From NCBI RefSeq assembly GCF_013256425.1, contig NZ_CP053904.1:4216001-4280000 (forward strand): a stretch of 64,000 bases of DNA. The letters run 5' to 3'. Both the position numbers and the translations under genes were made by a program. The notes below the pieces were generated by a model. That model did no database searches. It was given only the letters and a program-made list of their open reading frames with translations, and was not told where the DNA came from. Positions 29,956-30,596 of the stretch are shown here, piece after piece. Positions within the stretch are counted from its first letter, which is position 1. Every line of letters starts with the position of its first letter. The stretch comes from Hymenobacter sp. BRD67 (lineage in GTDB: Bacteria > Bacteroidota > Bacteroidia > Cytophagales > Hymenobacteraceae).

Positions 29956-30169
29956 GTTGGGGAAGAAATTAAAAAGTGAGTAAGCTGGAAATCAGGTAGA
30001 GAAAGCCCGGCTACTACTTTCGGAAAACTTCTTGCATAATCAATAAACTGATTATGAGGCGCATAACCAACGGTGTGTGGCGCAGTGCGCCTCGTTGCCG
30101 GGCTGCTCGCGCACGGCCCGCAATAGTTAGTACCCGCGAAGAAGAAAAGGAAGTGCCGGGCCGAAAGGC
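29956..30169 (-). promoter_or_regulatory. metY 5' leader with competing hairpins (candidate attenuator)
   Basis: 214-nt leader between a poly-Cys mini-ORF and metY. Immediately after the mini-ORF stop, cggcccg (plus 30157-30163) can pair with cgggccg (plus 30114-30120), 7 bp. The latter segment can alternatively pair with gcccg at plus 30099-30103, 5 bp or more, giving a mutually exclusive hairpin. Further downstream, gaggcgca can pair with tgcgcc or with tgcgcctc, and cataatca/tgattatg forms an 8-bp hairpin. Such a set of alternative stems is what translation-coupled attenuators use. No U-tract terminator is obvious, so control could be at translation. Stems were found by eye, not folded. 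Confidence 0.5.
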
Positions 30170-30199
30170 TTAGCCTTGGCAACAACAGCACATTCGCAT
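30170..30199 (-). CDS. poly-cysteine leader peptide candidate
   Basis: Mini-ORF reading Met-Arg-Met-Cys-Cys-Cys-Cys-Gln-Gly-stop (MRMCCCCQG), upstream of metY on the same strand. Four consecutive Cys codons (tgc tgt tgt tgc) just before a stop and a hairpin-rich leader are the design of an amino-acid-sensing attenuator: the ribosome would stall when Cys-tRNA is scarce. Cys-rich leaders with this role are established in mycobacteria; their use in Bacteroidota is inference. A longer version of 46 codons starts in frame at 30310 (MLHAFSSAVFP...) and cannot be ruled out. Confidence 0.5.
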   Translation of the reverse strand: MRMCCCCQG

Positions 30200-30596
30200 T
30201 CGCCGGGCGGGGCTGCCAAAGCCGGCCAAAGCAGAAGGCGAACAGTGACCCCGGCCGCGCACAAAAGTGCCGGAAGCGGGGAAGACAGCGGAGGAGAATG
30301 CGTGTAGCATGGTACTCGATTTATAGCCCCCGGGCTGCGTGGCAGCTGCCGGGGTAGGAATTGGCACCTTTCAGCTAGTGAAGGTTGCCAGCGGGTCAGG
30401 GAGCCTAATCTCTCGCCGCTTCTGTATAAAACTTATAATAACTGCCCCGCCTGCTGCGGGGAGTACCGGTTTGGTAGGCGCAAAGATAGGTGCGACGACC
30501 AGTTGCGCAAATTTTTTTACTGAAAGCTGCTTACTAATTCCCAAAAACGGGCCGAACGCCTGCTGCCGGGTCAGGAAGACCGGGTCGATTATAAAC

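Follow-up and report, generated by a model that had tools for sequence, protein, structure and literature searches.

Poly-cysteine leader open reading frames (ORFs) of cys operons have been described in Mycobacterium, in Propionibacterium acnes and, for cbs, in Bifidobacterium (Seliverstov et al. 2005, PMC1262725); as far as the accessible text of that report goes, the cysteine runs of these actinobacterial leaders lie near the stop codon, conserved terminator hairpins are lacking, pyrimidine motifs occur, and an involvement of Rho was suggested. Cysteine-responsive attenuation by polycysteine leaderless small ORFs (sORFs) of mycobacteria has also been reported (Canestrari et al. 2020, as related in the accessible parts of PMC9094748 and PMC13236596), and leader-peptide attenuation before amino-acid operons is mentioned for Flavobacterium psychrophilum in the available text of PMC9723704. 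Among RNA sensors, the accessible parts of the respective papers describe SAM-I riboswitches with direct translational control, in which the ribosome-binding site lies in P1 (Barrick and Breaker 2007, PMC2258182); the translated upstream ORF (uORF) of Mycobacterium tuberculosis ppe2, which is controlled by a riboswitch and on which downstream expression depends (PMC11260477); and tandem riboswitch logic gates, in which two signals act on one RNA leader and both sensors are aptamers (PMC5912903, PMC9481103).

The locus studied here, upstream of metY in Hymenobacter, combines features of these systems. Like the actinobacterial leaders of PMC1262725, it has a short ORF with cysteine codons by its stop, upstream of sulfur genes and with no excess of intrinsic terminators; unlike them, it belongs to Bacteroidota, is preceded at fixed spacing by a SAM-I riboswitch, and has counterparts before cysH and other targets as well as metY, whereas the accessible text of PMC1262725 describes no SAM-I. 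Convergence with the actinobacterial leaders is possible; the leaders are short, fast-changing ORFs. With the mycobacterial sORFs, as presented in the available parts of PMC9094748 and PMC13236596, our locus shares the poly-cysteine ORF before a gene, but those sORFs are leaderless whereas the Hymenobacter leader ORF follows a full SAM-I aptamer. As in the translational SAM-I riboswitches of PMC2258182, so far as the available text describes them, the 3′ side of P1 comes just before a start codon, in 115/115 metY loci of the genus, but this start codon belongs to a leader peptide and not to the regulated gene. The ppe2 uORF differs in its ligand (B12) and in the overlap of its stop with the start of the gene, and the accessible part of PMC11260477 does not describe it as sensing an amino acid; the metY leader has a distant stop and a run of cysteine codons instead. 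Unlike the tandem riboswitches in the available portions of PMC5912903 and PMC9481103, one of the two sensors is here a coding sequence. We found no description of a SAM-I riboswitch joined to a poly-cysteine leader in the open-access literature (few subscription papers were covered), and nothing of this kind in the accessible text of PMC7366714, PMC2965389 and PMC9373788. Cysteine-codon leaders themselves are already known; new here is the placement of such a leader behind SAM-I.

The window, i.e. the whole stretch of 64,000 nucleotides of Hymenobacter sp. BRD67 that was analysed, carries on its minus strand, in this order, a SAM-I (S-box) aptamer (30432-30318), a leader ORF (30310-30170), a 214-nt spacer and metY, the ATG of which lies at 29955. 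The aptamer matches the covariance model RF00162 over its full length at 63.7 bits, above the gathering cut-off of 44.4 bits; with our own model R1 it scores 92.9 bits, the window being among the 30 aptamers from which R1 was built. Seven nucleotides separate the 3′ end of the aptamer from the ATG at 30310, from which the frame is open for 46 codons up to the stop (MLHAFSSAVFPASGTFVRGRGHCSPSALAGFGSPARRMRMCCCCQG), with RMRMCCCCQG as the C-terminal end. The minus strand at 30199-30170 reads ATG CGA ATG TGC TGT TGT TGC CAA GGC TAA, with the four cysteine codons in tandem (TGC TGT TGT TGC) at 30179-30190. The original prediction had recognized the end of this frame, Met-Cys-Cys-Cys-Cys-Gln-Gly-stop, as a mini-ORF 214 nt before metY: the sequence and the distance of its stop are correct, but it is the tail of the 46-codon leader and not an ORF of its own. 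The 24-nt string from the ATG of the mini-ORF to the stop recurs identically 3′ of SAM-I in six other genomes, with one variant. The riboswitch had gone unmentioned, and with it the picture becomes one of two inputs.

Within 27452-29955, metY and metX are each broken over two frames, and nearly all other MetY matches in the genus are unbroken; the splits are probably indel errors of the assembly. The ORF list places the N-terminal part of metY (OAH/OAS sulfhydrylase) at 29437-29955, where the frame breaks, and the C-terminal part, also recovered by the MetY search, at 28573-29328 in a different frame; metX (homoserine O-acetyltransferase, 27452-28488) is split into ORFs 28488-28036 and 28366-27452, all on the minus strand. 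The latter ORF scores 288.7 bits against TIGR01392 (MetX), below the cut-off of 500, which applies to the whole protein, and an intact metY orthologue (L062) scores 669 bits against TIGR01326, for which the cut-off is 495.

Our comparison within Hymenobacter covered one upstream region from each of the 115 of 120 genomes with a MetY match (114 fetched regions and the window); G006, G025, G029, G096 and G097 were left out, as they had no MetY at E<=1e-120. R1 matches a SAM-I aptamer upstream of metY in 115/115 loci, and the Rfam SAM-I model matches the window and 20/20 other sampled loci. An ATG follows the aptamer at 7-10 nt in all 115 loci (at 7 nt in 72), and the leader ORFs, begun at the first start codon irrespective of sequence content, have 40-63 codons. 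The last 14 leader residues include at least two cysteines in 115/115 loci and at least three in 111/115, a count that was the same whether the ORF was selected by position alone or partly on cysteine and RM content; among control ORFs (ATG start, 20-70 codons) of the same upstream regions, at least three cysteines in the last 14 residues were found in 3/773 for the genus and in 3/206 for the order. The claim that the cysteine run exceeds chance is thereby borne out, and the suspicion that orthologous leaders might lack the run is answered by its retention in those 111 loci: the observation is confirmed, far beyond chance.

The number and spacing of the cysteines vary (CCCC, CCCRPCCC, CCWGPCCCG, nine in tandem), and no fixed motif is apparent by eye across the leader tails of genus and order. 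Of the changes in cysteine codons, 118 are non-synonymous and 63 synonymous; in the leader body, differences at codon positions 1, 2 and 3 number 988, 854 and 1157 over 123 pairs, a weak bias. The leader stop lies at least 166 nt upstream of metY in the genus; the distance exceeds 900 nt in loci with a redoxin-like gene between cysteine leader and metY, namely L063 (AhpC/TSA family), L064, L065 and L068. Stop codons of the 115 leaders (L070-L183 and the window) are TAG in 71, TAA in 44 and TGA in none; the cysH leaders L041 and L044 of the same genus stop at TGA. Three loci, L163, L167 and L170, have decayed cysteine tails (MCWGCRM, MCWGCWM), and in all three the tract can still pair at length with an element further downstream (12 bp in L163). 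As a genome-wide motif, ATG(TGY)4 proved unsuitable: it occurs in 95/120 genomes, yet was the metY leader at only 4 of the 31 loci inspected (L001, L006, L022 and L030, the last being the same locus as L087), and at the remaining loci the motif was judged to fall out of frame within coding sequence, CTG-rich or other.

The sampled SAM-I loci of Hymenobacter fall into two kinds. In the first, the aptamer is followed by an intrinsic terminator in 23/23 loci (13 gamma-synthase/lyase-like, 7 cysteine-synthase-like and 3 hom); SAM-I loci of metH have a terminator in 1/5 and lack a cysteine leader. The second kind includes the metY loci, with an intrinsic terminator in 1/115 (within about 120 nt after P1), and 26 others (8 cysH, 8 ATP-grasp, 5 amino-acid permease, 3 SusC-like and 2 unassigned), with a terminator in 0/26, at least three cysteines among the last 20 leader residues in 26/26 and a GTG start 3-13 nt 3′ of the aptamer; overall, a terminator occurs in 1/141 loci of this kind. 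The comparison is based on a sample, in which L032-L061 are the best-scoring SAM-I matches and L254-L273 were picked, among the matches listed, for SAM-I matches of 90-94 nt like that of the cysH-type L041; a census was taken for the window's own genome, where four of six SAM-I loci have a cysteine-rich leader and those of hom and metH do not. Gene kinds were set by sequence motifs, with representatives checked against family models, and ATG was preferred as leader start, then GTG, then TTG. Cysteine-rich ORFs after the cysteine-synthase-like SAM-I loci were, by judgement, not counted as leaders; they overlap the terminator in 5/7.

Because some genes with terminator-type SAM-I have the models of cysteine synthase and cystathionine gamma-lyase/gamma-synthase as their best matches, the split is not simply one of methionine against cysteine; a division between sulfur entry (cysH, metY) plus transport on one side and the remaining genes on the other seems closer. 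Within L032-L061, cysteine-synthase-like and gamma-lyase-like genes carry SAM-I with a terminator and without a cysteine leader. An ATP-grasp gene has SAM-I and a cysteine leader, as cysH and metY do, in L302, L049, L257, L260, L262, L266, L267 and L269; its protein gives a weak RimK-family match and is possibly a thiol-related ligase.

The arrangement extends beyond the genus. In the order set, MetY was found in 120/194 genomes and 40 upstream regions were taken, of which L241, with only 134 nt, was dropped to leave 39 usable loci. SAM-I is present in 34/40 order metY loci, and a cysteine-tailed leader in 25/39: 25/34 with SAM-I and 0/5 without. The tail of one of these leaders consists of nine cysteines in a row. 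By family, cysteine-tailed leaders occur at all loci of f1 (4/4), f2 (3/3), f4 (4/4), f9 (3/3), f14 (4/4) and f22 (2/2), at some loci of f5 (1/3), f18 (1/2) and f19 (3/5), and at none of f11 (0/5) or f15 (0/4). In a further set of 80 metY loci from named Bacteroidota, which partly overlaps the genus and order sets and includes three Hymenobacter, SAM-I was found in 56/80, with a start codon 3-16 nt 3′ of it in 51/56; by position alone, the leader ends with at least three cysteines in 33/56 of these SAM-I loci (30/53 minus the three Hymenobacter), and under the same rule no cysteine tail was found in 23/56. Named bearers of cysteine-tailed leaders include Pedobacter, Mucilaginibacter, Pontibacter, Thermonema and bins labelled Haliscomenobacter and Saprospiraceae. 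A Candidatus Kapaibacterium MAG (L378), possibly outside class Bacteroidia, has a leader that includes MMQMCMMMCCCMRG upstream of metY with no SAM-I match; in Sphingobacterium sp. (L319), SAM-I is followed by a leader ending in AMSMRMRMHMHLPTC, rich in methionine and not in cysteine.

Why cysteine should be sensed before metY may be seen from the enzyme itself. MetY belongs to TIGR01326 (O-acetylhomoserine aminocarboxypropyltransferase/cysteine synthase) and therefore can feed sulfide to homocysteine, perhaps to cysteine. Among the sampled genomes of the order, the leader is present in 17/17 with a weak cysE-like match and in 8/22 with a strong one, the threshold (E<1e-20) having been set after a gap in the values was seen; the Fisher p value of 2.5e-5 for this association is uncorrected for descent and is optimistic because the genomes are related. 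No cysE-like match exceeds the curated cut-off of the family in the 194 order genomes. The link is not strict, since the 13 Hymenobacter genomes in this cysE comparison combine a strong cysE-like match with the leader of the genus.

Methionine codons are a second feature of interest. In several lineages where SAM-I was not found, the metY leaders are rich in both methionine and cysteine: L283, L287, L288 and L291 have two tandem Met/Cys-rich short ORFs before metY, and L296 and L299 are further examples (L298-L300 were scanned for SAM-I with R1 only, and L300 matched upstream of its gene). Methionines in the last 20 codons average 4.0 in the leaders without SAM-I, against 0.88 in the order (from which L249, with one cysteine, was dropped here and in the pairing statistics) and 1.86 in the genus with SAM-I; the associated p value, 6e-6, is biased because the ten leaders, from six loci, were chosen by eye and two of them, one each from L283 and L287, fall outside the Met+Cys rule, the other eight having 3-6 methionines in the last 20. 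Some methionine is present also in the SAM-I-bearing leaders of L282, L285, L286 and L348. The pattern fits a scheme in which methionine codons would take over the task of SAM-I where it is absent.

We consider it likely that the metY leader is a two-input device in which SAM gates the translation of a cysteine-codon sensor. With SAM bound, P1 would close 7-10 nt before the leader ATG and hinder translation of the leader. When SAM is low, the leader would be translated, and the cysteine codons by its stop would gauge charged tRNA-Cys: under cysteine shortage the ribosome would stall on them, and transcription or translation would carry on into metY, whereas a ribosome that finishes the leader, or never starts on it, would permit an early stop before metY. 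The predicted logic is that metY is on when SAM and cysteine are both low.

An alternative sensor is the nascent peptide, the cysteine tail of which could respond to metal, redox state or sulfide instead of to tRNA-Cys charging. Clustered cysteines commonly serve as ligands in metal or redox chemistry, and a cluster does close this peptide; however, a ligand-binding tail sits poorly with cysteines that vary widely in count and spacing without an apparent fixed motif, with identified target genes that are mostly sulfur and amino-acid genes, and with the addition of methionine codons in some leaders that lack SAM-I. We regard a peptide sensor as unlikely.

The SAM-gated reading of cysteine codons must also be set against a classical attenuator, in which the position of the ribosome on the leader would decide whether an intrinsic terminator or an antiterminator forms. 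The original prediction had drawn such alternative hairpins, and complementary segments are indeed present in the window: plus 30114-30120 (CGGCCCG) can pair with 30157-30163 (CGGGCCG) and also with 30099-30103. The drawn pairing, however, is absent from the minimum free energy (MFE) fold of 30205-29956, and comparative support is lacking, only one other fetched locus (L070) being near enough to compare. That fold is mildly better than those of shuffled sequences (z -1.63; 12/200 shuffles fold as well). Both the MFE and the centroid folds predict a small hairpin spanning the stop codon, AAGGC UAA GCCUU (30165-30177, minus strand), and in the centroid this hairpin is enclosed by pairing of GUGCUG from the cysteine codons (30191-30186) with CGGCAC (30158-30153). 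Neither a universal stop-codon hairpin nor near-range pairing is supported across genus and order loci, and the cysteine tract does not in general pair with the 55 nt that follow it (mean z -0.10 in the genus, -0.27 in the order).

The region after the leader was analysed clade by clade because a genus-wide alignment is too diverged to read. In clades 17, 21, 20 and 6 the cysteine codons pair conspicuously with a distal element: the mean fraction of shuffles that score as high as the real sequence is 0.05, 0.14, 0.16 and 0.00 over 17, 8, 6 and 3 loci, respectively; as an example, GCCCGUGUUG pairs with CARCACGGGC in 17/17. For all 115 loci together this mean fraction is 0.47; neither clade 13 nor the clade of the window shows anything. 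In the best clade 100% of the long-range cells are paired, but 8/10 pairs never vary, and the score of the whole structure does not exceed that of shuffles (213/500), so that covariation says little for or against the pairing. A terminator-like hairpin with a U-run after the leader is found in 3/115 genus loci, where 7.7 are expected from shuffles, and in 1/26 order loci, where 0.3 is expected; a like scan finds the terminator in 23/23 SAM-I loci of the other kind. The clade-limited pairing notwithstanding, we judge the classical attenuator to be improbable. Since the fold of the window is unremarkable and the pairing is not general, we did not adopt the hairpin scheme; what remains of the cysteine attenuator proposed before a Bacteroidota metY is the cysteine-codon leader, which is real and conserved, and not the specific hairpins.

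Given that intrinsic terminators are not in excess, the early stop proposed for the SAM-gated leader may be Rho-dependent. In the window, a pyrimidine tract 3′ of the leader stop (30138-30153, minus strand) is a possible Rho-loading site. Rho itself is encoded. From +23 to +43 after the leader stop, the 115 genus loci have a base composition of C.45, G.12, T.36 and A.07; this pyrimidine-rich, G-poor tract is clear in the genus and not in the wider order. We tentatively propose, at somewhat less than even confidence, that Rho acts through this tract and that the pairing of cysteine codons with the distal element assists in some clades.

It could also be supposed that SAM alone matters, the leader being a translated spacer for translation coupling by SAM-I and its cysteines incidental. 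The constant spacing from SAM-I to the ATG is as this supposition would have it, and there is precedent for a translated uORF under riboswitch control (PMC11260477, accessible part), but the enrichment in cysteine is far above that of control ORFs and is confined to some of the SAM-I loci of the genus, and a leader stop at least 166 nt before metY, or more than 900 nt with the redoxin gene in between, is at odds with coupling; we consider this explanation quite improbable. That the ORF encodes a functional small cysteine-rich protein is the least probable of all, its body being barely constrained and its tail variable in spite of a start, frame and tail conserved in 115 loci.

More broadly, across Bacteroidota SAM-I may gate the start of cysteine leaders so that sulfur-uptake genes obey a rule of "SAM low and cysteine low", with SAM-I plus intrinsic terminators serving other methionine and cysteine genes of that genome and methionine codons standing in for a missing SAM-I; this general form we favour only slightly over its contrary. 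The proposal is directly testable in Hymenobacter, Pedobacter and Mucilaginibacter, and the terminator-type SAM-I of Hymenobacter provides a built-in comparison.

In conclusion, if our reading is true, leader-peptide cysteine attenuation would extend from Actinobacteria to Bacteroidota, and the metY leader would be a natural case of an RNA leader that reads two signals, its riboswitch governing the translation of a codon-based sensor. MetY can channel sulfide to homocysteine and, in genomes where a clear cysE was not found, perhaps contributes to the cysteine supply too; such a leader would explain how metY could obey both end products.
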